Positions 8,780 through 39,057 of a stretch of 64,000 bases of DNA are shown here, one piece after another. Positions within the stretch are counted from its first letter, which is position 1. Each line of letters starts with the position of its first letter. The DNA is from Luteibacter sp. (GTDB taxonomy: Bacteria; Pseudomonadota; Gammaproteobacteria; Xanthomonadales; Rhodanobacteraceae): NCBI RefSeq assembly GCF_009912395.1, contig NZ_WNDO01000026.1, positions 1-64,000 on the forward strand, in the 5' to 3' direction. The notes beneath the pieces were generated by a model, which searched no databases, had not been told where the DNA came from, and saw only the letters and a list, made by a program, of their open reading frames with translations. The translations under genes were made by a program, and so were the position numbers.

Positions 8780-8795
8780 GGGGTTCCTCAAGGGT

Positions 8796-9782: not shown

Positions 9783-9987
9783 GGGGCCAGCATAGGTAAC
9801 CTCATGGGGCGGAACAAATCCGATCGCGCCAACCTGCCTGGGGTGGCCGGCGTTGCCTTCAGGAGGACGTTACGGCCCTATGGACGCGGTGGATCCCCGG
9901 ACGCGGATGCTGGCGCTATAGTGAGGACAGGCGCCTCTCCGGTTAAAAGTCCGGGCTCTCACCCACAGAAGTGCAAGGGACTTGCTC

Positions 9988-10911: not shown

Positions 10912-10943
10912 TCGAGACGCCTAGCCGAACGTGTCCTCCCTGA

Positions 10944-12002
10944 TCACTTTGCGCCATGTGCTTGTATAAGAACGGACTGCCCTTTCGGGGCATCGAGTAT
11001 GCCGTTGATGGCATCCGCAATGGCATAGACATCGTTCCGGTTCTGGCTGGTCATGAGGATGATGGTTCGCCCCTTTGCGGGGAAAACCATCAGCAGCGCC
11101 TCGAAGTTGTGATCGTTCCCGTCATGCACATGTTTCACCAGCCGGTCGCCATCCATCTCGCCGTGGCCCAGGCCGGTCTGTCGCTTGGGGTCAGGGCTGG
11201 CCAGGATCTGACGCGTGCTTTCGGGTGTTATCAGGCAAAACATCGTGATGCAGTTGGACCAATGGAAAAGGTCATCCACGGTCAGCGCCGGCCAGCCCGA
11301 GAGATAGACCTTCAGGGTGTCCTGCGTGAGGTTAGCGCTGAACCCGCGCGCTACGCGCGGCGTGCCCTCGACGGGGTCGATGACGGCATCGGTGACCTTG
11401 GCCTTCGGAAAGACACGGCTTCTGACAAAGTCGTTGAAGCCCATGCCGCTGACCTTCTCGATGATCCGGCGACGCAAGAAGGTATTGTTATTGTTGTACG
11501 CGTAATGGGTCCTGGGCGGAAAATCGAGCTTCTCCAGCGCGCGAAGATTTCGAAAGGCATCGGCGTCGTTGTTCACCGTATTCCAGTCGATGTCAGGCAG
11601 GCCGCTCGTGTAGTGAAGAAGGTCGTTGATCGTGACGCTCTTCGACCAGGACGGAAGGTCGGGTATGAACCGGGACACGGGGTCGGAGAGCGACAGTTTG
11701 TGCTCCTGGGCGAGCATCAGTATCCCGACAACATCGAACTCCTTGGCGATGGAACCTATATCGAACCGGTCCGACAGGGAGAGCGGCACCTTGCGTGTAG
11801 CGTCCGCATAGCCAACCGCCCTGCGCAGGATCACCTTTCCCCGGTCGGCGACCAGGACATTACCGTTGAGGGTGCCGGTATCGCGTGCATGGTCGAGATA
11901 AGCATTCAGGGAGACCACCTGAGGCTCGGTGGCCATGGCCGTGCCGGAAAAGGTGGCAGTACATAAGGCCCCGAGGGCCACGCACGAGAGGATGAATTTC
12001 AC
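10944..12002 (-). CDS. Secreted serine hydrolase, beta-lactamase class C/PBP-like
   Basis: The protein has a signal peptide (ILSCVALGALCTATFSGTAMA) and then a class C beta-lactamase-type domain. The SxxK nucleophile motif is in DIGSIAKEF, and the tyrosine motif is in HYAYNNNN. Conserved blocks such as LLHYTSGLPD are present. The third KTG-like motif is not clear. Members are esterases, peptidases or transpeptidases in the periplasm. The GTG at 12002 starts just before the signal peptide; its ribosome site is weak, and the frame stays open to 12110. Confidence 0.8.
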   Translation of the reverse strand: MKFILSCVALGALCTATFSGTAMATEPQVVSLNAYLDHARDTGTLNGNVLVADRGKVILRRAVGYADATRKVPLSLSDRFDIGSIAKEFDVVGILMLAQEHKLSLSDPVSRFIPDLPSWSKSVTINDLLHYTSGLPDIDWNTVNNDADAFRNLRALEKLDFPPRTHYAYNNNNTFLRRRIIEKVSGMGFNDFVRSRVFPKAKVTDAVIDPVEGTPRVARGFSANLTQDTLKVYLSGWPALTVDDLFHWSNCITMFCLITPESTRQILASPDPKRQTGLGHGEMDGDRLVKHVHDGNDHNFEALLMVFPAKGRTIILMTSQNRNDVYAIADAINGILDAPKGQSVLIQAHGAK

Positions 12003-21335: not shown

Positions 21336-23504
21336 ATGTCTCATCGTATCCAGGGCCGACCACGGCTCTCCCTGCTTTGCCTTGCCTTGATCGTCGCGGT
21401 TCCCACCATGGCGCACGCGTATGTCGATCCGGATGTCGACGACAAGGACAAGAAGGCCACGACGCTCGACGCCGTGAAGGTGCAGGGTGAATCCGCGCCG
21501 ACGTATACCGTGAACCGTTCCGCTGCCACGACGCGCCTGCCGCTCACGTTGCAGGACACGCCGCAGTCCATCAGCGTCATCACCGAGCAGCGCATCAAGG
21601 ACCAGAACCTCACCAGCCTGCGCGCGGTGCTGGACAACACGACAGGCGTGAATTCCACCGCCTACGATTCGGAACGAGTGGTGTTCTGGTCGCGCGGTTT
21701 CCAGATCGAGAACATGTCGTACGACGGCGTACCCATCGCGTCGAGCCTCAACATCAGCTCGGCGGATTCGTCGCTCGATCCGTCCATCTACGAACGCATC
21801 GAGGTGGTCCGTGGCGCGACGGGCCTGTTGAGCGGCGCCGGCAGTCCGTCGGCCATGATCAACTTCGTGCGCAAGCATGCGGACAGCCGCACGCCCGAGG
21901 CCGAGGTGTCGGTCAGCTATGGCTCGTGGAACACCCAGCGCGAGACGGTGGATGCGTCCGTGCCGCTGAATGCGTCGGGTAGCGTGCGCGGCCGTTTCGT
22001 GGCGGCGCACCAGGATGGCGATTCGTATATCGACCGCTACCACAGCCAGAAGAACGTGGCGTATGGCGTCATCGATGCGGACCTGGACGACAACACCACG
22101 CTGAGCGTGGGCTACGACTGGCAGAAGACCCGTCCTACCGGCGTCACCTGGGGTTCCTATCCGGTGTTGTTCTCGGATGGCGGTTTCATCCACTGGCCGC
22201 GCGGCTTTTCGTCGGCTGCGGATTGGACGCACTGGAACAACACCACGCAGACGGCCTTCGTCGACCTGAAGCACGCGTTCGCCAATGGCTGCCAGGTGCA
22301 CGCGATGGCCAGTCATCGCAAGACCGATGCGGACTCCACACTGTTTTACGTCTTCGGCGCACCGGATCGCCAGACGGGTGGGGGCCTCACGCCGTATGCG
22401 TACAAGAGCTTCCAGCGCGGTAGCCAGAATAACCTCGATCTCTACGCGTCCGGTCCGTTCAGCGCGTTCGGAAGGGAGCATGAGCTGGTGGTTGGCCTGA
22501 CCGGATCGCATTACCGGAACGATTACTTCAATCACCCGCATGGCGATCTTCCGGATATCGGCAATTTCCTGGATTGGACGGGCAACTATCCGTATCCAGA
22601 TTTCTCGGCGGCGAGCGAGCGGGTATCCATTGCCCGTACCGAACAGAGCGGTGCGTATGCGGCGGCCCGGCTATCGCTGGCCGATCCATTGAAGCTGATC
22701 GTAGGTGCGCGCTACGCCCGCTGGAAGAACGACACCAACGACAGCACGGCCGGCATCTACCATGAGAAGGCCAGCAAGACGATTCCCTATGCCGGCCTGA
22801 TCTACGACATCACGCCCCAGTATTCGGCCTTCGTGAGCTACACGCAGATCTTCGATCCGCAGACCAACCGCAAGGCGGACGGAAGCTATCTCCAGCCGGT
22901 GCTTGGCACCAGCCGGGAAGCCGGTATCAAGGGACGGCATTTCGATGGCGCACTCAACACCTCGCTGGTGTTCTTCGATACCCGCCAGGATCACGTGGCG
23001 GACGCGCTGCCGGGTGTCTTCCTGCCCGACGGCACCACGCAGGCGTATCGCTCGGTAGACGGTACACGCTCACGTGGCTACGAATTCGAGGCGTCGGGTG
23101 CGCTGTCCAGCAGCTGGAACGCGACGCTGGGCTGGTCGCATTTCAACGTGAAGTCGCCGGACGGTGGCGCGCTGCGGCCTTCGTTGCCCCGCACCCTGGT
23201 GCGCGTCTTCACCACCTATACGCTGCCCGGCTCGTGGAGCGGCCTGACGGTGGGCGGTGGCGTGAACTGGCAGGGTCCGTCCAAGGCCGATATCGACGAC
23301 GGGCACGGCGTGGTTCGCCTGCATCAGGCTTCGCAGACCTTGCTGGGCGCGATGGCCCGTTATGCGATCGACGACCACGCATCCGTCCAGTTCAACGGCG
23401 ACAACCTGTTGAACAGGAAATACTTCGTGCTGGATGACGCCAGCAACCTGTACTACGCGCCCGGATCGACCTGGACGGTGTCGTTCAACTACAAGTTCTT
23501 CTGA
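21336..23504 (+). CDS. TonB-dependent siderophore receptor (FhuE/FoxA-like)
   Basis: The 722-residue outer-membrane receptor has a signal peptide (LSLLCLALIVAVPTMAHA), a TonB-box-like stretch (TTLDAVKVQGE), the plug sequence TPQSISVITEQRIKDQNLTSL cut into two segments of the classic PQSI motif, the conserved RGFQIENMSYDGVP, and a barrel ending VSFNYKFF. The family takes up ferric hydroxamate-type siderophores. ATG 21336 opens the signal peptide. The palindromes about 105 bases upstream may regulate it. There is no siderophore biosynthesis gene nearby, so the ligand is probably made elsewhere. Confidence 0.9.
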   Translation: MSHRIQGRPRLSLLCLALIVAVPTMAHAYVDPDVDDKDKKATTLDAVKVQGESAPTYTVNRSAATTRLPLTLQDTPQSISVITEQRIKDQNLTSLRAVLDNTTGVNSTAYDSERVVFWSRGFQIENMSYDGVPIASSLNISSADSSLDPSIYERIEVVRGATGLLSGAGSPSAMINFVRKHADSRTPEAEVSVSYGSWNTQRETVDASVPLNASGSVRGRFVAAHQDGDSYIDRYHSQKNVAYGVIDADLDDNTTLSVGYDWQKTRPTGVTWGSYPVLFSDGGFIHWPRGFSSAADWTHWNNTTQTAFVDLKHAFANGCQVHAMASHRKTDADSTLFYVFGAPDRQTGGGLTPYAYKSFQRGSQNNLDLYASGPFSAFGREHELVVGLTGSHYRNDYFNHPHGDLPDIGNFLDWTGNYPYPDFSAASERVSIARTEQSGAYAAARLSLADPLKLIVGARYARWKNDTNDSTAGIYHEKASKTIPYAGLIYDITPQYSAFVSYTQIFDPQTNRKADGSYLQPVLGTSREAGIKGRHFDGALNTSLVFFDTRQDHVADALPGVFLPDGTTQAYRSVDGTRSRGYEFEASGALSSSWNATLGWSHFNVKSPDGGALRPSLPRTLVRVFTTYTLPGSWSGLTVGGGVNWQGPSKADIDDGHGVVRLHQASQTLLGAMARYAIDDHASVQFNGDNLLNRKYFVLDDASNLYYAPGSTWTVSFNYKFF

Positions 23505-23525
23505 CCGACACCACCGGTGCCCAGC

Positions 23526-23849
23526 TCAGGGCGGAGGCGGCTGGATCGTCTTCGCCTTGAGCTGCTGGTTCAGCACCAGCCAGCCGATGAAGCTGCCCAC
23601 GGTAAGCAGCGTGGTGACCCACAGGTGGACCGCCATGGAGGTCTGCATGTCGCCGAAGCCGAACAGGTTGTAGCCGAATCGCATGCTGATGAAATGCAAT
23701 TCACCCAGCGTGGTGGCGACGGCCAGCCAGACAAAGCCCTGGTTGCGGGTTCTCTGCCAGGCGTTCAGCATCAAAAGCAGGATGCCGATGGACGCCAGGA
23801 AGCCGACGATCTGCGGAAGCGCGATGACGATGTCCCCGTAAAAACCCAT
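23526..23849 (-). CDS. Small inner-membrane protein (107 residues)
   Basis: From ATG 23849 (ribosome site GGGGAGGA) the product has three hydrophobic segments: VIALPQIVGFLASIGILLLML, FVWLAVATTLGELHFI and LWVTTLLTVGSFIGWLVL (shown in part). It ends in a proline run. No motif reveals its role. It converges with the siderophore receptor. The frame is open another 47 codons upstream but that part reads as random sequence. Confidence 0.65.
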   Translation of the reverse strand: MGFYGDIVIALPQIVGFLASIGILLLMLNAWQRTRNQGFVWLAVATTLGELHFISMRFGYNLFGFGDMQTSMAVHLWVTTLLTVGSFIGWLVLNQQLKAKTIQPPPP

Positions 23850-24043
23850 GTGTCCTCCCCTGGAAACGTATCTGACGAGTCGTGGACCAGCGCGCAGCGC
23901 CGGGCGTGGCGAGTATGGGGTGGGATACCGGCGGGGTAAAGGGATCGCATTACATCGATGGGCGAATTGGGCATTTTGCCGGCTTACCACACGCTGGTGC
24001 GATAGCTTCTTGCCGATTGCCCACTATCGTCCGGAGTTCCGTC

Positions 24044-24511
24044 ATGCGCGTACGTCTTTCCATCTCTCTTGGGCTCGCCGTATGGCTTGCCGCGGGTTCC
24101 GCCACGGCGTCCACGCCGCCCGTCACCGGGCTCGGCCAGTCCTGGCCGAACACCACCGACGCCAGTGCGAATCCTGGTTATCACGTCTACGTGTTCCAGC
24201 GTCTCGGCGTGCGCTATGTCCAGGTCAACGACGCATCGGGCGGTGTGCGCGGCGCTATCGCCTACGATGGCAAGAGCATCGGGGGCCTGCCGGTCGGTAC
24301 GGATGCCAGCCATTGGGTAACCCCCACGGAAGGTACCTACGTGCCCTCGCGGATGGCGAACGGCGTGACGGTCTATAGCGACGATGTCATGACGATCACC
24401 GTGGCGGTCCAGCCCGACGGTTCGATGCTCATGTCTGCCGCTCCGGTGGACTGCCATGGAGATCCGGCGGAGTGCAGCCTCAAGAACCCGCTGGTGCCGT
24501 CCTCACCCTGA
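24044..24511 (+). CDS. Exported hypothetical protein (155 residues)
   Basis: From ATG 24044 a signal peptide (SISLGLAVWLAAGSATA) leads a beta-rich mature domain (GYHVYVFQRLGVRYVQVND, then TVYSDDVMTITVAVQPDGS). One Cys pair near the C-terminus (VDCHGDPAECS) may form a disulfide. A GGAG site precedes the start by about eight bases. It converges with the MASE1 gene. No family is recognised. Confidence 0.65.
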   Translation: MRVRLSISLGLAVWLAAGSATASTPPVTGLGQSWPNTTDASANPGYHVYVFQRLGVRYVQVNDASGGVRGAIAYDGKSIGGLPVGTDASHWVTPTEGTYVPSRMANGVTVYSDDVMTITVAVQPDGSMLMSAAPVDCHGDPAECSLKNPLVPSSP

Positions 24512-24518
24512 TCGAACG

Positions 24519-25427
24519 TCACGCGGTGAGGTGATGTGCCGCTCGGTACGAACGCGCGCCGACCAGCAGGGCGCCAGAGATCAATAGCGCCAGCACGACC
24601 TGGCTTCGGATCATGTCGGGGTCGCGCAGAGCCGACCCGGTGGCGGCGAGCGCGACGCTCGCCGCCATGCCGACGATGGCACTTCCGTGCCATCCATGGC
24701 GCCATCCCACAAAGACGATGGGCAGCATCATCGCCATGCGTGCCACCTGGCGTATCGTCTCGTCCTGTGTGGTCGTGGCGATCCACGCCAGTCCGGCGAG
24801 TAGGGGCAACGCCACCAGGACGAAGTCGCGGAAGAGGGGGCTGTGCCAGAGCGTTTCGATATTCGCGCCCGGTGCGCGACGTATCCGCTCGTGCAAGGCA
24901 AGCACGGTGGGTGTGACCGTGAGTGCACCAAGATAGGCGCCAAGCACAAAAATCCAGAAATAGGCTGGCACCGACATGTCGGGCCATTTGCCTGGCGATT
25001 CGAGCAGCGCCGCGAGCATGGTGAGCGAGGTCGACGCGGCGGTGATGAGCGAGCATCCCAGCGTGGCGGCAAGGAGCACGCCCATGCGTAGCTGACCGTT
25101 GCGGTTGAACAAGGGGCGATGGCGAAGCAGCGGTTTTACCCACGCCATGCACAACACGACCATCGGGACGGAGGCCGAGATCGCCCAGGGTGTTCCGAAG
25201 CGTGGCGCGCATAGCACGGCGTTTTCGATCAAGGGCAATGTTTCGCCGAGTATCAGTGCAGGCCAGTAGCGCACAGGTAAGAGGAGCAGGCAGGCCAGGC
25301 GCAATCCGGCGGTCAGTATCCAATGGGAAAACGACACATACCGAGCGAGTTCATAGCACGCAGCATAGGCACCGGCGATCGCCAAGTGCTGACCCCAGCG
25401 GTTCCAGTGAGTCGCACTTGCGTTCAC
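24519..25427 (-). CDS. MASE1-domain membrane protein without output domain
   Basis: The 302-residue protein is a polytopic membrane protein of the MASE1 sensor type, with about eight hydrophobic segments such as ILTAGLRLACLLLLPVRYWP, LIENAVLCAPRFGTPWAISA and PAYFWIFVLGAYLGALTVTP. MASE1 normally precedes GGDEF, EAL or histidine kinase modules. Here the protein ends soon after the last helix (SYRAAHHLTA), so no signalling module is present. The start is a GTG at 25427 with an AAGGAACAG ribosome site; the open frame upstream overlaps the divergent lyase and is not coding. It could regulate a partner or act as a transporter-like sensor. Confidence 0.8.
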   Translation of the reverse strand: MNASATHWNRWGQHLAIAGAYAACYELARYVSFSHWILTAGLRLACLLLLPVRYWPALILGETLPLIENAVLCAPRFGTPWAISASVPMVVLCMAWVKPLLRHRPLFNRNGQLRMGVLLAATLGCSLITAASTSLTMLAALLESPGKWPDMSVPAYFWIFVLGAYLGALTVTPTVLALHERIRRAPGANIETLWHSPLFRDFVLVALPLLAGLAWIATTTQDETIRQVARMAMMLPIVFVGWRHGWHGSAIVGMAASVALAATGSALRDPDMIRSQVVLALLISGALLVGARSYRAAHHLTA

Positions 25428-25621
25428 GCCTGTTCCTTCGTCGGTGGGGTGTGGCTCAAGAGTGCCACGATCCAAACAGGGTTTTTTTTGACGTAGTACC
25501 TTCCGGGCAAACGTCGTGGACACTCTTGCCGAATAGGCGTCGCGACGAGGTAGACGGTGCGCTTGCGGTGGTCGCGACGTGCGCGATGAAGGTTGCAGAC
25601 GAAACGAGTTCGCGCCAAACA

Positions 25622-25636
25622 TGTTATGTTGTAACA
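25622..25636 (+). promoter_or_regulatory. Palindrome in the lyase promoter
   Basis: TGTTATGTTGTAACA has matching arms TGTTA and TAACA around five bases and lies 17 bases upstream of the lyase ATG, over the probable promoter or leader. The arrangement suits a repressor operator. No regulator gene is adjacent to support it. Confidence 0.4.
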
Positions 25637-25652
25637 ATATTGGAGTGCGCAT

Positions 25653-27215
25653 ATGACTGCTCGTTTTCGTTTCGTCGCGACGGCGACCTTGCTGGCGATG
25701 GTGCCTTTCGCTTATGCCGGGACGTCGAACGACGCCACGCGCATCGGTCGGACCAGCGTGCCCAAGGCAGCGGAATTCCAGGAGCTCTACGATTTCGACG
25801 CAGCGGCCCAGACGTTGCCGGACGCCACGTTTCCCTATGAGGTGCGCGTCCACCGTGCCCATGTCGTGATGCTGGCGGAGCGCGGCATCATCGGGCACAC
25901 CGACGCCGCGAAGATCCTCCGCGGCCTCGACGTCGTGGATGCGCGGGCGAAAACGGATGCGTCGCTGCGCACGTACCTGCCTTTCGAAGCCGCATTGATC
26001 AAGGCGATTGGCCCGGTGGCCGGGCGCATGCACACCGGGCGCAGCCGGAACGACCTGGCCAACACGGTGAATCGCATGTACTACCGTGAACGCCTCGACG
26101 AGGTCATCACCGCGTTGATCGCACTGCGTGCCACGGTGGTGGACAAGGCGGCGGATCACCTCGATACGGTGATGGTGGTCTACACGCACCGCAAGGAGGC
26201 CCAGCCGATCACCCTGGCGCATTACCTCATGGCGATATCGGAGAGTCTCGGCAAGAGCATCGACCGTTACGAGCAGTTGTATGCGCGGATGAACCAGAGT
26301 CCCCTGGGCGCGGCGGCATCGGCGGGTACGGGGTGGCCATTGGACCGCAAGCGCACGGCCGATTTGCTCGGCTTCGATGGCCTGGTCGTCGATACCATCG
26401 AAGGCACGGCGGGTTGGGACCATATCGCGGAGTTCGCCTCGGACAACGCGATCTACCTCAGTGGTCTGGGTCGATTGGCTTCCGAGATCCAGCTATGGTC
26501 GACGGACGAGTACCGTTCGGCCGAGCTCGACCCTGCCTTCGCGGGTATCAGCTCCATCATGCCGCAGAAGAAGAACCCCGATTCGCTGGAACGCACCCGG
26601 CAGATCGCCGCCAACAGCGTCGGCGCGTTGACCTCGGTGCTCACCTCGCTCAACGCCATCGAGTACCAGCACAGCGTCGTGCGCGTGCCGCTGGAGCCGC
26701 GCTCGATCGATGCGCTGATGGCGGCCACGCATGCCATGACCGGTGTCGTGCGAACGCTGCAACCGGACAAGGCGCGCATGCTGCGCTACGCGGCGGAGAA
26801 CTTTTCTACCATGACGGATTTGGCGGATGCTCTGGTCCGGGAAACGGGCATCGATTTCCGCGAGGCGCACGAGGTGATCGCGCGGGTGGTCAACGAAGCG
26901 ATCGACAAGGGTGTCACTGCGAACCGTATCGACAACGCGATGATCCAGCGTGCCGCCAAGGCCCAGCTTGGCCACGGCCTGACGATATCCGATGCCGCTA
27001 TCCGCGATGCCCTCGATCCCGTTCGTGGCGTGGCCAGGCGAAATGGCGAGGGCGGCCCCGCGCCGGATGCCGTGCGCCGCATGATCGCCACGGCGAGGAC
27101 CGAGATCGCAGCGGAGCGTGAACGCGAGGGCCGGCGCCGCGATGCGCAGGCCGTGGCATCGCGGCGACTCGATGCCGCGGTGTCGTCGGTGGAGGCGTCC
27201 GGCAAGCCTCAGTAG
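25653..27215 (+). CDS. Exported argininosuccinate-lyase-like enzyme (fumarase/aspartase superfamily)
   Basis: A signal peptide (VATATLLAMVPFAYA) precedes a full lyase of the argininosuccinate lyase type. Visible landmarks are GRMHTGRSRND (125-134), the His of YTHRKEAQPITLAH (Thr178-His179), SPLGAAASAGTGWPLDR and the superfamily signature SSIMPQKKNP (300-309) with the loop Ser. The usual S-D-R-D stretch is replaced by TAGWDH, so substrate binding may differ from ArgH. The C-terminus is extended and basic. Cytoplasmic ArgH makes arginine; a secreted version cannot do that. The gene is convergent with lanM and overlaps it by seven bases, so a role in the lanthipeptide locus is inferred. It could instead be a stand-alone periplasmic lyase. 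Confidence 0.8.
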   Translation: MTARFRFVATATLLAMVPFAYAGTSNDATRIGRTSVPKAAEFQELYDFDAAAQTLPDATFPYEVRVHRAHVVMLAERGIIGHTDAAKILRGLDVVDARAKTDASLRTYLPFEAALIKAIGPVAGRMHTGRSRNDLANTVNRMYYRERLDEVITALIALRATVVDKAADHLDTVMVVYTHRKEAQPITLAHYLMAISESLGKSIDRYEQLYARMNQSPLGAAASAGTGWPLDRKRTADLLGFDGLVVDTIEGTAGWDHIAEFASDNAIYLSGLGRLASEIQLWSTDEYRSAELDPAFAGISSIMPQKKNPDSLERTRQIAANSVGALTSVLTSLNAIEYQHSVVRVPLEPRSIDALMAATHAMTGVVRTLQPDKARMLRYAAENFSTMTDLADALVRETGIDFREAHEVIARVVNEAIDKGVTANRIDNAMIQRAAKAQLGHGLTISDAAIRDALDPVRGVARRNGEGGPAPDAVRRMIATARTEIAAEREREGRRRDAQAVASRRLDAAVSSVEASGKPQ

Positions 27216-30082
27216 GCGATGGCCTCGTCACGCTCGCCGATCGATGTCACGGCCGCCGTGCGCAGCCGGTATTCCATCAGCAAGGGTGAGGGGAAGCGGC
27301 ACTCCGGATGCATGCGGCCCAACTGGAGGATCGAACCGGAGACGCCGCTCATCAGGCCGGGATTGTAGGCGTCGCGGGCCAGGCCGCCGACCATGCCGTG
27401 CTCTTCGATGCTGGAGAGCACGAGGGCCACACCGGGCATCTCAACAGGCGGCACCAGAGCCGGATCGATGCGCGCGGCGCGATCCATGAGTTCCCATACG
27501 CTGAGGTCGCCGTGGCACAGCGTATGGTTGTGCCCCCAGGCACCGGCCGCCGCCGCGCGAACGGCGCGACGAAGCGTATGCAGATGGCGGGGATCGCCGG
27601 TGCGTTCGTACAGATCGCAGGCGGCGAAACCGATGCCTACGCTGCCGTGGCACCAGCTGTCGGCGAAGTCGCGGCTTTCGGGCTTGCGTACGTCGATCCA
27701 GTTGCCCGACGCGTCATGCCACAGCGATTCCTCGAAGTCGAAGGCGCGCTCGGCGAGGGACAGCCAGCGCCGCCGGTCATCATCGTCACCCGCGCGACTG
27801 AGGCCCAGGCGTGCAAGGGCCCAGCCGGTTCCCGTGGCGCCATGGGCGAACCCACCCAGCGGCTCGTCGAAGACGGAAGCGGGCCAGCGTGCGCCCTGCG
27901 CATCGACGATCGCGGTGGCTTCCAGATGGTGTCCCGCACGCGCCGCCAGCGACAGCCAGCGTCGGTCGCGCGTGGCTTCCGCGAGATTGAGCAGGGGCAC
28001 GATCATGCCGCTGACGCCTTCGAGGATATCGAGGACAGTTTCGTTCTCGATGTCCTTGCGTTCCAGACGAACGGCCTGCCGTATCGCTTCGTCCAGCCAT
28101 CCCTCGTTCGGGCGGACCTGGTCGAGGGTAAGCCATGTCTGGATTTGCGATCCCAGGCCAATGAAACCGCCGACCGCGTCGGCATCGTCGATCCGCTCGG
28201 AGGCGCGGAGCACGCGCAGCGCACCCTCAAGGGCCTCGTCGACGCCCTCGATGGCATCGGCGCGGCCGTGCCGTACCTCTTCCGCGTAGCTGGCGAGCGT
28301 CAGGACGATACCGCCCAGGCCTACGTAGAGGTTTGGCTGCAAGGTGCGCATGGTCCAGCCGCTGCGGCCGAGGATGGGGCTGATCCAGGTGATCGTGCCG
28401 TCGTCGCCACGTACGGACAGGCGCAGCAATTGTTCCAGGGTCCGTCGCAGCAGCGCCCGCCGACGCCGGTCGAGGTCGGCGGCATACGGATGCCGGGCGG
28501 CAAGATCGTAGGGGAGGCGTTTGTCGTCGTTGAGGCGCACGTTGAGATGCGCGGTCACGAGCGCGCCACGAATGGTCAGTTCCTCCAGTTCGAGGCGCAT
28601 GTCCAGCCAGGCCTGGAACACCTCGCCCAGTTGGGCCGGATCGAGGGCATTGGCGAAGACGGGGACATCGCCGTAGCGCATGTCGTCGATCTCGCCAGCG
28701 ATGATGGTCGGATCGGACGGGGCGATAGGAATGGCGGCGGCGTTGAGCGAGAGCAGCTCGGTGGCCCGCGCTACCGCGGCGGCTTCATCGTGCAGCGATG
28801 CGGGGTGCCAGAGCATGCGCATCACTTCTACGTAGGCCTGGGTGGGTCGCAGGATCTGCCGGATGCGGCAGCCGACGAAGGCGTGCAGAAGCGGCTTGAG
28901 TGCGCCTTGGCGATGCATTTCCGACAGCGTTGCCGTGACGCTCAGGAAACCATCGACGATCCGTTCCCAGAAGCGCGAAATGTCCGGATCCGCGCAGGGA
29001 TGGTTCTTGGCCGCGTCCAGGTCGATGCTGACCAGCCCGACACGCGCGTCGGTGGTGCCGCCGTTGACGATTTCCGGCACGCGGATCTTCGGCTGTTCGC
29101 CGCGTAGGGCGCCGATGGCGGAAATATCCACGCCGTCCAGGCCGAGGGTGGGCGAGCGGAAGGGGACAAGTCCCGTGCGCAATACCGACGAGCGGATCAG
29201 TGCCTGGGCGAGATCCACGGCCTGCCCCTTGCCCGAGGGAGGTAGCGGCACCTCGGTGACGAACAAGCTTTCGACGTCCACCACGTGCGGGACGATCGAC
29301 GTAGCGATGAGGTTTTCGTAGTGGATATCGGTACCGCCGAGCAAGCGCATGACGGCGAGCCAGTGCCCGACGTTGCGATAGAAGATGTCCAGCTCGGCAT
29401 CGTCGCGGCAGTGGACGTGCTCTACGTGATGGGCCCATCCGTACGCTCCCCGATCGAACACGGCGGGAACGCGGATGCGCGAGGGATCGCCCGGGAATAC
29501 GGTATCGAGGAAGCGTTCCAGCGCCGCGTCCACGCGGAGCGAGCGCGGCTTGTACATGAGCGTGCCACCGGCAAAGTCCAGCTTCGCGACGGATTGGCCT
29601 GCGTCGTGGACATCGCCTTCGCCGAGATGGATCGCGCGCAGCGCGCCAAGCGTGTGTCCACTGAACGTCGACAGGGCCTCACGGTCGATGGCGATCCGGT
29701 CCAGCATCGTCACGATGGCCTGGCGCTGCTGTTCAAGTACGCGGGTCAATCGTGGTGCAAGCGCGGGATAGCGTCGCTCGATCGCTTCGATGAACTCGCT
29801 CGTGGTGGCCCGGGCGATGAAGGCGGCGAAGCGGATGTCGTCGGAACCTTCCGGCAGCTCGCCGCCAAGCTTGGCGGCATGCAGTTCGAGTAGGAGGACG
29901 CGATTGAGCTTGCGCTCGGCATTGAGCAGCAACGCACGATCCGCCATATCGGAGACGAGGCGTCGTTCGTCGTCGTCGAGGCCGGGTTGGGAGGCGATGT
30001 CCGCCGCGAGTTGCCGACGCACGTCGGTCGTGAGGAAGGCGATGACAGGAGCGAATGCGTTCTGCGGCGCGGAAGCGTCCAT
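27209..30082 (-). CDS. lanM: LanM class II lanthipeptide synthetase
   Basis: LanM dehydrates Ser/Thr of a precursor and joins them to Cys as (methyl)lanthionine. The N-terminal DUF4135 dehydratase shows GDVHDAGQSVAKLDF, LMYKPRSLRVD and GGTDIHYENLIA, with VDVESLF. The C-terminal LanC cyclase has GFAHGATGTGWAL (about 744) and two zinc motifs, WCHGSVGIGF (about 809) and LCHGDLSVWEL (about 855). All key parts appear intact; 957 residues is normal. I chose ATG 30082, since the frame upstream runs into the hairpin that follows the precursor gene. The ribosome site is weak. It acts in the cytoplasm before export. Confidence 0.92.
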   Translation of the reverse strand: MDASAPQNAFAPVIAFLTTDVRRQLAADIASQPGLDDDERRLVSDMADRALLLNAERKLNRVLLLELHAAKLGGELPEGSDDIRFAAFIARATTSEFIEAIERRYPALAPRLTRVLEQQRQAIVTMLDRIAIDREALSTFSGHTLGALRAIHLGEGDVHDAGQSVAKLDFAGGTLMYKPRSLRVDAALERFLDTVFPGDPSRIRVPAVFDRGAYGWAHHVEHVHCRDDAELDIFYRNVGHWLAVMRLLGGTDIHYENLIATSIVPHVVDVESLFVTEVPLPPSGKGQAVDLAQALIRSSVLRTGLVPFRSPTLGLDGVDISAIGALRGEQPKIRVPEIVNGGTTDARVGLVSIDLDAAKNHPCADPDISRFWERIVDGFLSVTATLSEMHRQGALKPLLHAFVGCRIRQILRPTQAYVEVMRMLWHPASLHDEAAAVARATELLSLNAAAIPIAPSDPTIIAGEIDDMRYGDVPVFANALDPAQLGEVFQAWLDMRLELEELTIRGALVTAHLNVRLNDDKRLPYDLAARHPYAADLDRRRRALLRRTLEQLLRLSVRGDDGTITWISPILGRSGWTMRTLQPNLYVGLGGIVLTLASYAEEVRHGRADAIEGVDEALEGALRVLRASERIDDADAVGGFIGLGSQIQTWLTLDQVRPNEGWLDEAIRQAVRLERKDIENETVLDILEGVSGMIVPLLNLAEATRDRRWLSLAARAGHHLEATAIVDAQGARWPASVFDEPLGGFAHGATGTGWALARLGLSRAGDDDDRRRWLSLAERAFDFEESLWHDASGNWIDVRKPESRDFADSWCHGSVGIGFAACDLYERTGDPRHLHTLRRAVRAAAAGAWGHNHTLCHGDLSVWELMDRAARIDPALVPPVEMPGVALVLSSIEEHGMVGGLARDAYNPGLMSGVSGSILQLGRMHPECRFPSPLLMEYRLRTAAVTSIGERDEAIAY

Positions 30083-30123
30083 GGACCGTCCCGGATATCC
30101 CGTGGTAAGACCGAAGGAGAAGG

Positions 30124-30152
30124 GATAGCCGTGGCGGCCTGCCACGGCTATC
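30124..30152 (-). terminator. Perfect hairpin between precursor and lanM
   Basis: GATAGCCGTGGC (30124-30135) pairs fully with GCCACGGCTATC (30141-30152) around five bases. It lies 18 bases after the precursor stop and 42 bases before the lanM ATG. On the minus strand it is followed by CCTTCTCC, not a clear T run, so it is probably a partial terminator that lowers lanM expression relative to the precursor, or an RNA 3' end. Confidence 0.7.
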
Positions 30153-30169: not shown

Positions 30170-30358
30170 TTAGCAGCAGGCACCCGGCCGGGAGGCCGTA
30201 CAGGAGCTACAGCGGGAGTCCAGCGCCACTTCGGCGTTGGTCATCGCGATCATCGTGTTGGTCAGGCCCTCGGTGTAAAGCGAGCCCGCCGGATTGTCAT
30301 ACCCACCTACGCTATCGGCACCACTCAACCAACCCACAAGGATCTTGTCGGTCTGCAT
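30170..30358 (-). CDS. lanA: Lanthipeptide precursor (62 residues)
   Basis: A short gene from ATG 30358, preceded by a GGGAG ribosome site, encodes a 62-residue peptide directly upstream of lanM on the same strand. The leader-like part (MQTDKILVGWLSGADS, then YDNPAGSLYTEG) resembles class II leaders with an I..GW and NPAG pattern. The tail from about Ser48 to Cys62 holds four Cys (50, 53, 61, 62) and Ser/Thr at 48, 51, 52, 54 and 56, which can form up to four rings. Thr35 and Thr40 could also be modified. The cleavage site is not obvious; Gly18-Gly19 is the only double glycine. The gene is easily missed because a longer random frame runs through it. Confidence 0.85.
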   Translation of the reverse strand: MQTDKILVGWLSGADSVGGYDNPAGSLYTEGLTNTMIAMTNAEVALDSRCSSCTASRPGACC

Positions 30359-30575
30359 TGGAGTACTCCCTGGTGTTATGGGTCTGCGCCCGGAATGAGA
30401 AGGACGTGCATCGCAGCGGGCGCTTCCGCGACGACGCCATCGGATCATTCTGCAGAGTCGCGGACAAGGACTTGGCGTTACGTGCCGAATTTGCATGGCG
30501 AACGCGACAGGTATCCGCACGGCCTCTCTGGCAGGATGCACGTTACCGGCCAGCGAAGGAGGGAAGGACACCTCG
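30359..30575. promoter_or_regulatory. Divergent promoter region of precursor and exporter
   Basis: These 217 bases separate the precursor (minus) from the exporter (plus) and must hold both promoters. I see no convincing palindrome or -35/-10 pair. The exporter ribosome site AGGAGGGAAGG lies at 30557-30567. Confidence 0.45.
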
Positions 30576-32240
30576 ATGATCCTGAAACGCTTCATCATGC
30601 GGCACCGCGGCCTGGTGCTGGCTGCGGTGGGTCTATCGGCGGCGAGCGCGCTGTCGACGATGATGCTGCTCTCGCGCATCAACGACCTCGCCGCCCACGG
30701 TATCGGTACCGATCGTGTCGGCCCGCTGCTGGCCGGCGCCGGGTGGCTGCTGGCTGTGCTGGCAGCCAGCACGACCTCGCAATTTATTCTCGCTCGCCTG
30801 GGCGGCGATCTGGTGGCGCAACTGCGCCTGGACCTTTCGCGCCGTTTCATCGACCTGGAATACGAGAAGCTCGCCAATGAGAAGCACACGGTCTTCGGTT
30901 CGCTCATCGAGGACGTGGCCAGCATCGCGCCGCTGGTGCTCGTGGCGCCGTTGCTTGCCTACAACGGCCTGCTGCTGGTTCTCTACGTCGTCTACCTTGG
31001 CAGCGTCTCGTTGCCACTGCTTGGCGTCATGCTGGTGTTCCTCGGCGCGACGGCGCTGACCTCGATCGTGTTCGAACGTCTACTTCGTCATCGCTTCGAC
31101 GGCGTGCGCGCGGCTAATGAAAAACTGTATGAGTACTTTCGCTTCATCAGCGAGGGGAAAAAGGAAATGTCCCTCAACACCGCGAGGGCGCGGCATGTCG
31201 AACGGGAACTGATCCGTCCGGCGATCTTCCATGCCCGCCGCCTGACGGTACAGGTGCATACGGGGCTCGGCTTCAACGAGGCCTGGTCGGCGGTGATGCT
31301 GTACGCGTCGGTGTTCGTGATCGTCTATCTGGGAAGCGCCGCGCTTTCGCTGCCCCAGGCGACCATCCTCCGCTTCGTGATCGGTGCCCTGTTCCTGAGC
31401 GGACCGGTCGCCTTCATCGTCAGCGCGGCGCGACAGGTTGGCGTGGGTACCGCGGCCCTGCGGCACCTCCAGAAGGTCGGTCTGGACCTCGATAGCGATG
31501 CGATTCCGATTCAGGAGGAGAGCCTCGCGGCGGATAGCTGCTCGTGGCATCGAATCGCGTTGCGTGATGTCAGCTACGCCTATCCCGGTGACCAGGAAGA
31601 CCGTGTCGCCTTAGGGCCCGTGGACCTGGAAGTGCGGCGTGGGGAGCTGCTGTTCATCGTGGGGGGGAACGGCAGCGGCAAGTCGACCCTCCTTCTTCTG
31701 CTGGCGTCGCTCATCGCACCGCGTTCCGGCGAACTCCTGGTCGATGGTGCGCCCGTGGCAGCCGATATCGATCACCATCGGCGCCGTTTTACCGGTGTGT
31801 TCGGTGATTTCTTCCTATTTCCGCATGTGCTCGACGATAAGGGCGATCCGTTGCCGGACGAGCGCATCCGCGAACTGCTGGCGACGCTGGGTCTGGGCTC
31901 GCTGGTGAGCGTGGAAGGCGGAGAGCTATCGAAGCTCACCTTGTCCACCGGGCAACGCAAGCGCCTGGCGCTTCTCCAGTGTTATGCGGAAGACCGCGAT
32001 ATCTTCTTCTTCGACGAATGGGCGGCCGACCAGGACGTCCACTTCCGCGACTACTTCTACCGCTCGCTCCTGCCGGACCTGAAGGCGCGCGGGAAGACCG
32101 TGGTGGCGATCAGTCACGACGACCGTTATTTCCACCTCGCCGACCGCGTCGTGAAGCTGGACGCCGGTCGTATCGTGTCCGATACCCGACAGCGTGCGAA
32201 TGCCGGGGCTATGGCGGAGTCCTCGACGCTTTTGTCCTGA
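30576..32240 (+). CDS. Cyclic-peptide-export-type ABC transporter (SyrD/PvdE-like)
   Basis: The 554-residue half transporter has six hydrophobic segments in residues 1-300 and an ATPase domain after about 340. Walker A is GGNGSGKST, the signature region LSTGQRKRLALL, and Walker B DIFFFDEWAADQD, the last two closely matching the SyrD/PvdE cyclic-peptide exporters. It probably moves the modified peptide across the inner membrane. There is no N-terminal C39 peptidase domain, so it cannot cut a leader as LanT does. ATG 30576 has a strong AGGAGGGAAGG ribosome site. It is divergent from the precursor. Confidence 0.88.
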   Translation: MILKRFIMRHRGLVLAAVGLSAASALSTMMLLSRINDLAAHGIGTDRVGPLLAGAGWLLAVLAASTTSQFILARLGGDLVAQLRLDLSRRFIDLEYEKLANEKHTVFGSLIEDVASIAPLVLVAPLLAYNGLLLVLYVVYLGSVSLPLLGVMLVFLGATALTSIVFERLLRHRFDGVRAANEKLYEYFRFISEGKKEMSLNTARARHVERELIRPAIFHARRLTVQVHTGLGFNEAWSAVMLYASVFVIVYLGSAALSLPQATILRFVIGALFLSGPVAFIVSAARQVGVGTAALRHLQKVGLDLDSDAIPIQEESLAADSCSWHRIALRDVSYAYPGDQEDRVALGPVDLEVRRGELLFIVGGNGSGKSTLLLLLASLIAPRSGELLVDGAPVAADIDHHRRRFTGVFGDFFLFPHVLDDKGDPLPDERIRELLATLGLGSLVSVEGGELSKLTLSTGQRKRLALLQCYAEDRDIFFFDEWAADQDVHFRDYFYRSLLPDLKARGKTVVAISHDDRYFHLADRVVKLDAGRIVSDTRQRANAGAMAESSTLLS

Positions 32241-34346: not shown

Positions 34347-36164
34347 ATGCCCTTCGAGCTTCCCATGCCACCTCCTCCGCCAGCCATCGTGGCGTTGGCG
34401 TCGAGGGTGGAGGCTTCCCATATAACGCCCGTAGACGCCGAGAACGTTGTTGCGGCGGCGTGGCTCGAACTACGCAGGGATGCGACGTTCGGGCGTTTCT
34501 GTCGGCGCTATCACGCTGATCCCGAAAGCCTGGTCGCGCATCCGGATGGAACCTTCTCCCTTCGTTCGGTAGATGACGACGGGATCACCGAGATTCATTT
34601 CAGGCCATTCGATAGCCAGGGACGCTTCACAGGGCCTTTTGCCCTGGAAACGGACGCAGCGAAATGGAAGTCATCGCTCGATATCCTCCTTAGTTACACC
34701 TATGCTCTCGCACGCGATATCGGCAATGACGCGGTCGGTATTTCCAGGATGAATGGCATGCTGCTGGACCGTATGCTGGAACGTATCGACGGGGAGGGCG
34801 TGGAGAGGACGCGGACAGCGTCAGTGGTGCGCGCGCTCGAGTTGTTTGCCTCGCTGTATCGAAATGACGATGGTCACGTCATACCTGGGGCAGATATCGG
34901 GGGGTACCGGTATGCAATCGATCAAGACGCGTTCGCGCGCCGCTTCGATGCGGATCACCGCATGTCGTATCTCACGGGGTGGGTGACGGCGCTTCCGCGG
35001 GAGGAAATATCGTCGCGCGTGGCGATGCGGGTATTGGGAAAGCTAGCCGGCCATCTGAAGTCCTTGTACGCCGATGATGTCATGCTGCCGATGAGCCCTG
35101 ATGAGGAGGGCAAGCGATGGTTCGTCGAATCGATGCGAAGCCGGGTGGTTTCGGGCGCTGCATCGCGAGGTGTCGCCATCGATGGCGGCACGGCGGATTT
35201 CGCGGCCAATGTGCTTTGGTGCATTCACATGGATGATCTGGCGGTGCGGAACGCGTTGCCGTCATTGCCTAACGTAGCGATTCCGACGGTCGGCAACTCG
35301 GCAACATCTTCTTTTCCGTCCTCGTCCGTTGGGTCGGGTGCCTCTCCTTCGATCACCTATTCCCCCGACACGACGTTTCCTCCACGTTCCGTTGAGTCCG
35401 ACAGGCCCTCCTCGCCGGTCGGAAAGGAGCCGCCTGCGATCGATGACGGCATGGCCTATCGGCCATGGACCATGGTGGTAAAGGTCGCCACGGTGGTGGG
35501 TGCCGTGCTCGTCTTCGGCGCTGGCGTGGTCACCGCGCTTACGGCGTCGCAGAAAGCCGCCGTGGTCCTGCTGGGAAATGCTGCGGCGGCTGCGGGCGCG
35601 ACCTTGCTTGCGATCATGGTGCCGGGTGTCGAGAACGTGGCAAGTGCGGTTGGTACCTCGGGCCTGCTCTATGCCAGTGCCGTCGACTCCCTGGTAGCCA
35701 ACGGCGTCGCACCGCAGCTCGCAAAGAGCGCGGCGATGGTTGAGGTATCCGGCGTCTATATTCTCGTCGGTGTCGGCGTGGCGCAGAGCGGCGAGGCGCT
35801 GGAAGCGTTGAAGCATCATCCGGGATGGCGAGCGGCACTGAAGGCAGCAGCCAGCATCCTCGCGACGATCGGTACCGCGGCGGCGGGTACGCCTGCGGCC
35901 GACAAGGCTGACCAGGCCAGTATCGCGGATCCGCAATACCGCTTTTTCAACAAACATCCCGATGTGCCCGAGCGCCTGGGGCACACGGGTAATGGTGCGG
36001 TCCTCGTGGGTGTCGGTGTCTTGCATACCGTGGACGAGATTCCTGGGGAAAACGAGACGCCACCCGATGACAACACGGCACCGGAAGACGAATCCATGTC
36101 ATGGTGGCAGGTGTTGTTGTCGTTCTTCGATCCGTCCGGACTTCCCTCCCGTCGATCGCCCTAG
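34347..36164 (+). CDS. Uncharacterised 605-residue protein with hydrophobic C-terminal domain
   Basis: I do not recognise the family. Residues about 1-310 are soluble (FGRFCRRYHADPESLVAHPD, GITEIHFRPFDSQGRFTGPF). A Ser/Pro-rich linker lies at about 315-370. After it come hydrophobic segments (MVVKVATVVGAVLVFGAGVV, AAVVLLGNAAAAAGATLLAI) and a helical stretch ending about 500, then an acidic tail. There is no signal peptide. The layout (soluble head, linker, hydrophobic insertion domain) would suit a membrane-active toxin or effector, but no catalytic motif or immunity gene is seen. It is a single gene with ordinary codon use. Confidence 0.6.
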   Translation: MPFELPMPPPPPAIVALASRVEASHITPVDAENVVAAAWLELRRDATFGRFCRRYHADPESLVAHPDGTFSLRSVDDDGITEIHFRPFDSQGRFTGPFALETDAAKWKSSLDILLSYTYALARDIGNDAVGISRMNGMLLDRMLERIDGEGVERTRTASVVRALELFASLYRNDDGHVIPGADIGGYRYAIDQDAFARRFDADHRMSYLTGWVTALPREEISSRVAMRVLGKLAGHLKSLYADDVMLPMSPDEEGKRWFVESMRSRVVSGAASRGVAIDGGTADFAANVLWCIHMDDLAVRNALPSLPNVAIPTVGNSATSSFPSSSVGSGASPSITYSPDTTFPPRSVESDRPSSPVGKEPPAIDDGMAYRPWTMVVKVATVVGAVLVFGAGVVTALTASQKAAVVLLGNAAAAAGATLLAIMVPGVENVASAVGTSGLLYASAVDSLVANGVAPQLAKSAAMVEVSGVYILVGVGVAQSGEALEALKHHPGWRAALKAAASILATIGTAAAGTPAADKADQASIADPQYRFFNKHPDVPERLGHTGNGAVLVGVGVLHTVDEIPGENETPPDDNTAPEDESMSWWQVLLSFFDPSGLPSRRSP

Positions 36165-36249: not shown

Positions 36250-37209
36250 TCAGAACCGGTAGGTGGCGCCGACGTTGAACATCATGCTGCGGTTGGCGGC
36301 GCTCGCGCCGAGGGCGATAGGTTCGCCTTCGAGGGTTCCCCGACCGGTGCCTCTTGTTTCGTAGTACTTCTCGTAGCTGGTTCGTGCGGATAGCGACCAA
36401 CGGCTATCGATGGCGTAGTCCGCCTTGACCGATGCGCCGATCATCTTCGAGTTGCCGCCGCGAAGGCTGGAAATGTAGTTGCGCGGGATATGGTTGTCCC
36501 GATCTGTTCCGCGAGCCCACAACGAACCCGTGAGTTCCCCGGACACGGTCCATTTGCCGCGTTGGAAATCCGTGGCGATACCCAGGTAAGGCGCGCGCCA
36601 GCGCTGGGTATAGGTGATGCCCTTGCCGTCGAATGCCTCGACGGTGTCGCGAAAGCCGTCGGCTTCTTGATACTGGCTGGAATAGACACCGCTTCCGCCG
36701 TTGCCGTCCCAACTCAGCTCCTTGTAGCGATAGCCGGCCAGTCCACGGAACGAGAAGTCGCCTGTCGAGGCAAAGGTGTAGCCGACGCGGGTATCGATAC
36801 CGGAGGCTTTGCGCAATGTCGTCTGGGGGTGCGTTGAACGATCGGTCCAGTCGGCCAGGCCTTCGTCGATACCTTCAAAATCATAGTCCCTCATGCGTGT
36901 TCCGCCGGAGGCGACCTTCGTCCATGCCTGGGTATCCCAGGTCCAGCGCTCGTCGATGCGGAATCGGAAGTCGGCACCGATTACCGGTGCGGAGGCCGTA
37001 CGCCAGTTCAGCTGGCTTAGCCGGTTGCCATCGGGCGTGAACACCCTTTCCTGCGACTTGTTATGCAGCGTGCCGGTAAACAGGCTGCCGCTGAAACGTT
37101 GGTTGTCCACGACGGTACGACGGCTGTCCGTATCGACATCGGCTGCCTGGGCGAGGGGCGCTGCGAGCGCAGCAAGGGAAAGGAAGGCGGCTGTGTGGGA
37201 GGCTTTCAT
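36250..37209 (-). CDS. Omptin-family outer-membrane protease
   Basis: The 319-residue protein has a signal peptide (AAFLSLAALAAPLAQA) and a ten-strand barrel ending in GATYRF. The omptin active site is complete: the Asp pair is in MRDYDFEG (OmpT Asp83/Asp85 region) and the His-Asp dyad in DRDNHIPRNY (OmpT Asp210/His212 region). WTDRSTHPQT and GFRDTVEAF also match family blocks. It would cleave peptides, including antimicrobial peptides, at the cell surface. ATG 37209 follows an AGGAG ribosome site. It lies a few kilobases from the lanthipeptide locus; a link is only a suggestion. Confidence 0.88.
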   Translation of the reverse strand: MKASHTAAFLSLAALAAPLAQAADVDTDSRRTVVDNQRFSGSLFTGTLHNKSQERVFTPDGNRLSQLNWRTASAPVIGADFRFRIDERWTWDTQAWTKVASGGTRMRDYDFEGIDEGLADWTDRSTHPQTTLRKASGIDTRVGYTFASTGDFSFRGLAGYRYKELSWDGNGGSGVYSSQYQEADGFRDTVEAFDGKGITYTQRWRAPYLGIATDFQRGKWTVSGELTGSLWARGTDRDNHIPRNYISSLRGGNSKMIGASVKADYAIDSRWSLSARTSYEKYYETRGTGRGTLEGEPIALGASAANRSMMFNVGATYRF

Positions 37210-37527
37210 TTCTGTATCACTCCTGATGGATAAGCGCGACGACTGGGGATTCGCCGCGCCCCCCAAGCTATCGGCGCGTGCCGTATGCGCCTATCGGATT
37301 CGTCCTAGAAACGCGTGTTTACGGCGCCATGTCGCGCATTGGAGACGATCGCTACATGAGCGGAACGATTCCGGCGCGAAGGGATCACCCGGCCTCGTGC
37401 CCTATCCGCTGCGATGTATTTCGCCATTCATGACCAATGGCACGGGGGCAATGAAGCTGACTGGGCGTTAATGAAAGGGATGCCCCGCATCGGGCAGATG
37501 CTGTCGAATGCTCAATCCGGATATGCC

Positions 37528-39057
37528 ATGACGTTCCCGATGTTGCCGTCCAGCCGCCGCGCGCGCTGGTTTGCGGTCCTCTGCTCCGCATCGCTGCTGC
37601 TTTCGCCGCATGTTCTTGCGGAAGAAAAGAAGGCCGATGCCTCCTCCCACGAAGACAAGAAGAGCGAGTCCGATCTCCCTCCGTTGCCTGCGGACAAGAC
37701 GATCCACCAGAGCGTCCGCGTGGACGGCCGTATGCTGTCGTACGACGCCACGGTGGGCACCATCGTCGTGCGCAACGACAAGGGCAAGAAGATCGCCGAG
37801 GTGGTCTATACCGCCTATGTCGTGCCACACAAGGGCCCGGGTCGGCCGGTGACGTTCGCCTTCAACGGTGGTCCCGGTGCGTCGTCGGTGTACCTCAACA
37901 TGGGCGCGATCGGTCCGAAGCGCGTGCAGTTCGGCATGGATGGCAACGCGCCGTCCGACGCCGCGGTGACCAAGGACAATCCCTCCACCTGGCTGGACAT
38001 GACCGACCTAGTCTTCATCGATCCGGTGGGTACGGGGTTCTCGCGTTCGCTGGAAGACGACGATGCGACGAAGAAGGATTTCTACGAGACCGAGGCGGAC
38101 ATCAAATACCTCTCGCGCGTGGTCTACGACTGGCTGGTGAAGTCGGGCCGCCTGCGCGATCCGAAGTACGTCGTCGGTGAAAGCTACGGCGGCTACCGCG
38201 CGCCGCGCATCGCCTACACCCTGCAAACCGGCATGGGCGTGGGCGTGAACGGGCTGGTGATGGTTTCGCCGTACATCGACCCGGCCGCGATTGGCGATGG
38301 CGATTCGCTGTCGCCGTTGCCCTGGATGATCAACCTGCCGTCCATGGCCGCCGGCCACCTGGAAGAGCAGGGGCGGTTCTCGCCGCAGGCCGTCCAGGAG
38401 GTCGAGAACTACGTGCGCAAGGACTTCGTCGTCGATTTCCTTGCCGGTCGTTCCGATCCGGGCGCCGTGGCGCGCATGGTGCAGAAAGTTTCCGGCTATA
38501 CCGGCCTGGATCCCGCGCTGGTGGCGAAGCTCGACGGCCGCGTGGGTATCAGTACCTTCCTGCGCGAGGCGCATCGCTCGGAGAAGAAGATCGGCAGCGT
38601 CTACGACTCCAACGTCACCGCATGGGATCCGTTCCCGGGTGCCGCGCGGCAGCAGTCCGGTGACCCGATCCTCGAGGCGATCATCGCGCCGGCTACCAGT
38701 GCCGTGGTGGACTTCATCACCCGCGAGGTGGGCTGGAAGCCCGATGCGCATTACGAAGCGCTGTCGTTCAAGGTCAACGAAGCGTGGGATCGTGGTTCGC
38801 CCGACGACAAGCCCGTCGCCGACCTGCGCAAGGCCATTGCCAACGACCCGAACATGCATGTGTTGATCGCGCACGGCTACAACGACCTGTCGTGTCCGTT
38901 CTTCGCGTCACGCTTGATCCTCGACCAGATGCCGGCCTTCGGGCAGGCCGAACGGGTGAAGTTGGCGATCTATCCCGGCGGTCACATGTTCTACGGGCGC
39001 CCGGATAGCAACCGCGCGTTCAAGGCCGATGTCGGAAAGATGTTCGGCGTGAAGTGA
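37528..39057 (+). CDS. Exported S10-family serine carboxypeptidase-like peptidase
   Basis: A signal peptide (ARWFAVLCSASLLLSPHVLA) precedes an S10 peptidase with FNGGPGASSVYLNMGAIGP (oxyanion strand), the nucleophile in VVGESYGGYRAPRIA (Ser about 219), a late Asp in HGYNDLSCPF and His in YPGGHMFYG. These are the catalytic triad of serine carboxypeptidases. It would trim C-termini of peptides in the periplasm or outside. ATG 37528 sits at the signal peptide; ATGs at 37471 and 37492 in the same frame are possible. A strong hairpin follows the stop. Confidence 0.87.
   Translation: MTFPMLPSSRRARWFAVLCSASLLLSPHVLAEEKKADASSHEDKKSESDLPPLPADKTIHQSVRVDGRMLSYDATVGTIVVRNDKGKKIAEVVYTAYVVPHKGPGRPVTFAFNGGPGASSVYLNMGAIGPKRVQFGMDGNAPSDAAVTKDNPSTWLDMTDLVFIDPVGTGFSRSLEDDDATKKDFYETEADIKYLSRVVYDWLVKSGRLRDPKYVVGESYGGYRAPRIAYTLQTGMGVGVNGLVMVSPYIDPAAIGDGDSLSPLPWMINLPSMAAGHLEEQGRFSPQAVQEVENYVRKDFVVDFLAGRSDPGAVARMVQKVSGYTGLDPALVAKLDGRVGISTFLREAHRSEKKIGSVYDSNVTAWDPFPGAARQQSGDPILEAIIAPATSAVVDFITREVGWKPDAHYEALSFKVNEAWDRGSPDDKPVADLRKAIANDPNMHVLIAHGYNDLSCPFFASRLILDQMPAFGQAERVKLAIYPGGHMFYGRPDSNRAFKADVGKMFGVK

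Follow-up and report, generated by a model that had tools for sequence, protein, structure and literature searches.

A Cys-rich DUF6229 peptide of Luteibacter as a variant of the rhodanocin family of lanthipeptide precursors

Judged by its sequence, a 62-residue peptide encoded by Luteibacter is an uncharacterised variant of a known lanthipeptide family and belongs to a separate subfamily, here called type A. We put at roughly 80% the probability that its product is a rhodanocin-related lanthipeptide made by LanM. The specific tail of the peptide, together with a putative fourth ring, is likely to be new as far as we searched. The features of the locus are listed below by their positions in the window, by which we mean the whole 64,000-nucleotide stretch of DNA that was analysed.

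27209..30082, minus strand: lanM, predicted class II lanthipeptide synthetase of 957 amino acids (TIGR03897, DUF4135, LANC_like; conserved ATG at 30082)
30124..30152, minus strand: GC-rich hairpin with a 12 bp stem between the precursor stop and the lanM start (conservation and covariation)
30170..30358, minus strand: predicted lanthipeptide precursor (LanA) of 62 amino acids, DUF6229 (Pfam match, selection, alignment conservation)
30366..30371, minus strand: AGGGAG, ribosome-binding site 7 nt upstream of the precursor's ATG
30576..32240, plus strand: predicted ABC exporter of the cyclic-peptide/YojI type, divergent (TIGR01194; longest reading frame from 30495; ATG at 30576 with a ribosome-binding site, judged by eye)

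The earlier note had placed a 62-residue reading frame at 30170-30358, upstream of lanM, with Cys at positions 50, 53, 61 and 62 and five Ser/Thr residues in a 15-residue tail. All of this holds, the five being S48, S51, S52, T54 and S56; that note lacked the strand, which is minus and is shared with lanM just downstream. The longest frame for lanM, 27209-30145, opens with a GTG at 30145, a start that was rejected because the hairpin contains it and conservation points to the ATG at 30082.

The precursor matches PF19740 (DUF6229) over residues 2-62 with 72.6 bits against a cut-off of 25 (hmmscan, Pfam), and has no match in NCBIfam up to an E value of 1. Expression of the class II cluster of Dyella sp. 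333MFSha, a strain elsewhere treated as Luteibacter mycovicinus (PMC11165876), gave rhodanocin as the LanII product (Ayikpoe et al. 2022, PMC9576775). According to the same authors, their data suggest that DUF6229 members are lanthipeptide precursors, for which they proposed the name “rhodanocins”; orthologues occur in several genera of Rhodanobacteraceae, and the family holds at least two ring patterns (PMC9576775). Assignment to an orphan or unknown family was rejected, since DUF6229 is a known lanthipeptide family. The claim that the peptide is of no recognised kind thus survives in one part only: the precursor family is published and rhodanocin is structurally solved, while no characterised product with exactly this tail appears in the papers searched, although their supplements may list it. 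A concern that gene callers would skip so short a gene carries little weight, as Pfam has a curated model for DUF6229 and NCBI annotates a relative (PMC9576775).

The leader probably spans about residues 1-46 and the core about residues 47-62 (DSRCSSCTASRPGACC), a border placed from rhodanocin and from conservation. Residues I6, G9, W10 and N22-G25 are invariant in 16 aligned sequences (that of the window and 15 relatives), so that the leader-like start with I..GW and NPAG remarked on earlier is a conserved feature. The adjacent LanM scores 527 bits with TIGR03897 (cut-off 304), 306 bits with DUF4135 and 129 bits with LANC_like. Its motifs DIHYEN, YKPR, WCHG and LCHG align with LicM2 and presumably have catalytic and zinc roles. 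A motif count over 53 extracted LanM reading frames was set aside, because at least two rows (L068 and L009) are probably wrongly extracted frames and because several motifs vary across the family.

Matches to PF19740 above the cut-off are present in 42 of 233 genomes of the family to which the window belongs (48 at E <= 0.01) and in none of 14 control genomes. We took the 61 precursors above the Pfam cut-off, at 54 loci counting that of the window, and left out eight weaker matches. Every one of the 61 (54/54 loci) has a LanM homologue downstream on the same strand. The distance is at most about 260 bases, except in tandem pairs, where the second copy stands between the first copy and lanM and puts the first at 313-915 bases. 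At one locus (L050) the LanM is cut by the contig end. At another (L083, G125:C2:212300-228600) the LanM at 8197-11093 is split between two frames, which may reflect gene breakage or an error in sequencing. The proposal that the peptide is a lanthipeptide precursor and a substrate of the adjacent LanM is well supported by the DUF6229 match, the LanM domains and this conserved pairing.

For sorting by core pattern, four precursors from three Luteimonas loci were added to the 61. Among the resulting 65 are 18 of type A, the kind found in the window (C-S-x-C-T-x-S...CC), nine of type B (C-x-x-C-T-x-S followed by a single C), 14 of type C (C-x-[ST]-x-C-[ST]-x-S...CC) and 24 with other patterns. 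The front half [ST]-x-C-x-x-C-[ST]-x-S is common to 27 of the 65, namely the 18 of type A and the nine of type B. When a profile of 16 type A sequences was run against 398 genomes of the order, 31 matched at E <= 1e-6; the 13 matches below 1e-36 comprise the window itself plus 12 Luteibacter/Dyella orthologues. Thirteen matches lie outside the family of the window. Nine precursors from these were read, on eight stretches, all eight of which encode a LanM, and only the two precursors of one genome (G456) are type A-like. These two are arranged in tandem (L124, G456:C95:45000-53000) with the pattern CSSCSASGGG[YQ]CC, which fits type A with Ser in place of Thr54. The type A subfamily is LanM-linked and conserved across Luteibacter, Dyella, Luteimonas and G456, a member of another family of the order.

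In a LanM tree of 55 rows, built by a quick method and omitting the partial LanMs of L050 and L083, 17 type A LanMs form one group with support 99 and four type B LanMs another with support 100, on opposite sides of the midpoint-root split. The LanM of the window is 65-76% identical to other Luteibacter/Dyella type A LanMs and 37-39% identical to type B LanMs.

Rhodanocin provides the structural reference for these types. It carries four dehydrations, with NMR-mapped methyllanthionines 6-11 and 12-23, lanthionine 8-14 and Dhb18 (PMC9576775). The full position pattern, T.C..CT.S...T....C, fits five of the 65 precursors, all of type B, and the first sites of these five correspond to S48/C53, C50/S56 and T54 in the peptide of the window. 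Counted from its GG, one type B peptide (genome G110) has Thr6, Cys8, Cys11, Thr12, Ser14, Thr18 and Cys23, and from the next Asp to its end there are 23 residues, which matches the AspN product of the paper. Because the modified positions, the 23-residue AspN product and a possible double Gly all fit this precursor, characterised rhodanocin (WP_043693394.1) is most likely of type B. It would then resemble a precursor on contig C23 of the same genome as the window, which is one of the five.

That genome holds three DUF6229/LanM loci. The second (L045, G000:C23:10000-28000) has tandem precursors at 8417-8611 and 8918-9115, the former fitting every NMR-mapped rhodanocin position, and no relative of the window's exporter was found there; three neighbouring reading frames that were scanned have lectin or glycosyltransferase domains. 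The third (L044, G000:C35:17000-35000) has a precursor at 8450-8632 with a type C core (CGTACTGSRTRFCC) and an ABC transporter gene downstream. The peptide of the window fits only the front half of the rhodanocin pattern, and its LanM falls outside the clade that, by the probable assignment of rhodanocin to type B, is the rhodanocin-type clade. Identity with rhodanocin itself was rejected on account of the four Cys, the CC end and the unmet full position pattern.

In the maturation that these parallels suggest, LanM would read the DUF6229 leader and dehydrate Ser48, Ser51, Thr54 and Ser56 of the core, to which the four Cys residues would be added. By homology to rhodanocin, ring 1 would join Ser48 to Cys53, ring 2 would join Cys50 to Ser56 with the Cys on the N-terminal side, and ring 3 would run from Thr54 to Cys61 or Cys62. 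Ser51 may then pair with the remaining terminal Cys, which would give four interlocked rings as against three in rhodanocin. The action of LanM on this peptide and its ring pattern are what we infer from the homology, and the shared front-half map could fail, since the LanM of the window has such low identity to rhodanocin-type LanMs and branches far from them.

The residues in question are under evident constraint. Orthologues from 14 “Luteibacter/Dyella” genomes, one per species, were compared: ten are the window genome and members of its genus, and four come from two other genera of the family, a naming that is partly inferred. Positions S/T48, C50, S51, C53, T54, S56, C61 and C62 are kept in all 14. 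The residue at position 52 varies, being Gly in two of the 14 and Leu in one Luteimonas copy. The arrangement [ST].C..CT.S arises in 0.3% of random permutations of the tail. A CC end occurs with a Ser directly after the first core Cys in every type A precursor (18/18), whereas every type B precursor (9/9) ends in one Cys and has Ala, Val, Leu or Ile at that place. This association of Ser51 with the extra Cys is suggestive and is not statistical proof, because few clades are represented, 18 of the 24 precursors sorted under other patterns have a CC end too, and one type B peptide lacks an extra Cys although it has a Thr in the second position of this loop.

On these grounds we tentatively propose that type A peptides carry four rings, with Ser51, inside two overlapping rings, joined to the terminal CC; that this Ser and the extra Cys are gained or lost together; and that two LanM lineages that split very early build the same front-half scaffold. 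Such a peptide would have a topology unseen in rhodanocin. A product with three rings, as in rhodanocin, would instead have rings 48-53, 50-56 and 54-61 or 54-62, the fourth Cys being free or in a disulfide and Ser51 dehydrated without cyclisation or left alone. This outcome has precedents, in that Dhb18 of rhodanocin is dehydrated yet uncyclised and another LanII product left one Cys free (PMC9576775). A ring through Ser51 could also be sterically tight, as this residue would lie inside rings 1 and 2. However, a spare Cys would be expected to drift, and the invariance of Ser51 and both terminal Cys among the 14 orthologues, along with the joint occurrence of Ser51 and the CC end throughout type A, counts against the three-ring product, which we judge somewhat less probable than the four-ring one.

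The divergent exporter scores 322.9 bits with TIGR01194, above the cut-off of 286.2, and its best NCBIfam match is NF007813 (359.8 bits, 2.4e-107, under the cut-off of 604); both are models for YojI/SyrD-type exporters of cyclic peptides. The usual exporters of class II clusters (LanT) carry a C39 peptidase. No such domain was detected in the exporter of the window, where the eight Pfam families matched at E <= 0.1 are all ABC, AAA or SMC-type ATPase models. The exporter is present at all 14 Luteibacter/Dyella type A loci with 62-78% identity, the flanking genes differing, and it is divergent in the genus of the window, whereas the other two genera have it downstream of lanM. It was absent from the fetched stretches of three Luteimonas type A loci, which for one (L007) reach only 3 kb downstream, and from the 8 kb retrieved for the G456 locus L124, and the other 40 DUF6229 loci gave no match above 31% identity. 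One class II lanthipeptide region described for Lysobacter enzymogenes includes a gene named yojI (PMC9410377). The YojI/SyrD-like pump of the window probably exports the peptide, and it may also, or instead, protect the producer.

No dedicated leader protease was found at the locus, and the leader would be removed by a protease encoded outside the cluster. An omptin-family outer membrane protease gene (36250-37266; PF01278, 155.9 bits) and an adjoining S10 carboxypeptidase gene (37414-39057) lie 6-7 kb from the cluster. Relatives of the two occur near the L. anthropi locus, but the stretches fetched for the remaining 15 type A loci contain neither, which makes both weak candidates for this task. 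Twelve other genes of the window were compared with the 16 other type A loci, and none is common to more than two of them. The argininosuccinate-lyase-like, AraC, alpha/beta hydrolase, omptin and S10 genes, each found at none or one of those 16 loci, were accordingly rejected as members of the cluster.

Some of these neighbours have features of their own. The gene at 25653-27215 belongs to the argininosuccinate-lyase family (TIGR00838, 341.7 bits) and has a signal-peptide-like start as judged by eye, so that it perhaps encodes an exported lyase; it was found at none of the 16 other type A loci. The stretch from the TonB receptor gene to lanM (about 23500-27200), which includes this lyase, differs from the corresponding part of the L. 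anthropi locus (L062), which suggests an insertion or replacement. A 605-residue reading frame at 34347-36164 has no Pfam match, and among the 16 loci a relative with 42% identity stands beside the exporter in L. anthropi only.

Taken as a whole, the genes appear to form a compact cluster for a class II lanthipeptide, in a subfamily related to rhodanocin, and the product would likely serve as a narrow-spectrum antibacterial. The product might instead be a signal or surface peptide, exported by the pump for that purpose, which we regard as rather improbable. The core is nearly fixed across the 14 genomes and not diversifying, and besides the pump we recognised no immunity gene at the locus, both of which would suit a peptide that is not an antibiotic. 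Yet pumps of the YojI/SyrD type usually act on bioactive peptides. Rhodanocin, the characterised relative, does have antibacterial activity; its MIC of 126 uM on K. pneumoniae (PMC9576775) is weak and was obtained with a product of AspN cleavage, which probably differs from the native form, a circumstance that leaves room for the signal or surface role.

Among the 14 orthologues, all 62 residues long and aligned without gaps, pN/pS (uncorrected and summed over all pairs) is 0.26 overall, 0.28 in the leader and 0.23 in the tail. Synonymous differences thus far outnumber non-synonymous ones, which indicates that the gene is real and that its tail is constrained. A ribosome-binding site of the GGAG type precedes the ATG in all 14 orthologues shown, window included. 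That the frame is a chance Cys-rich stretch or a decayed precursor, as its shortness and its nesting in a longer open frame (251 residues from the first ATG) might suggest, is contradicted by its conservation and ruled out for practical purposes by the curated PF19740 match and purifying selection, as well as by the ribosome-binding site and conserved operon position. A promoter scan found none, and no relative was found in a viral collection.

The hairpin between the precursor stop and the lanM start is likewise present at all 14 Luteibacter/Dyella type A loci. Over the 75 bases that follow the precursor stop, folding energy is 1.3 to 6.1 SD below that of simple shuffles, and the effect is weakest at L055. 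Of 11 pairs, three show changes in both partners (shuffled mean 1.5; as many in 15 of 500), and such changes occur in eight cells (shuffled mean 2.0; 0 of 500). Further pair types are not above shuffles (258/500), and the innermost pair is unpaired in eight of the 14. The exact core occurs once in the genome, and a dispersed genome repeat was rejected on that basis. Because the window has a weak T-run and some relatives have a strong one, the hairpin is likely a leaky terminator or an mRNA stabiliser. It would allow more precursor than LanM to be made.

Gram-negative lanthipeptides are scarcely characterised, and the ring map predicted for type A differs from that of rhodanocin by one ring, which can be checked. 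Moreover, because one genome holds types A and B with separate LanMs, it offers a natural test of how two distant synthetases impose the same scaffold and of whether either accepts the other's substrate.

Among known systems, the structurally solved LanMs LicM2 and CylM, both from Gram-positive organisms, are of the same enzyme class as the LanM of the window. LicM2 is the best match and CylM the second, although at only 163 and 122 bits, and their substrates have unrelated leaders. Exporters of the LanT type differ from that of the window in the C39 leader peptidase, which was not found in the latter. The DUF6229 lanthipeptides of Lysobacter belong to the same Pfam family and to class II clusters as in the window; of 27 unique class II precursors described there, in six families, 21 are DUF6229 (PMC11451712). 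Their core positions differ from those of rhodanocin, and the part of that report available to us describes none as structurally characterised (PMC11451712).

The nearest comparison is with rhodanocin, one of the first two gammaproteobacterial lanthipeptides to be characterised (PMC9576775). It shares with the window peptide the DUF6229 leader, a class II LanM and the front half T/S-x-C-x-x-C-T-x-S, and its ring positions 6-11 and 8-14 and the start of its third ring at 12 match that front half. Of the three rings of rhodanocin the last is long and encloses a Dhb, and its core is possibly preceded by a GG. The peptide of the window instead carries four Cys and ends in CC, has one more Ser, placed behind its first Cys, and lacks a GG ahead of the core, and rhodanocin-type loci, with LanMs 37-39% identical to that of the window, do without its exporter.
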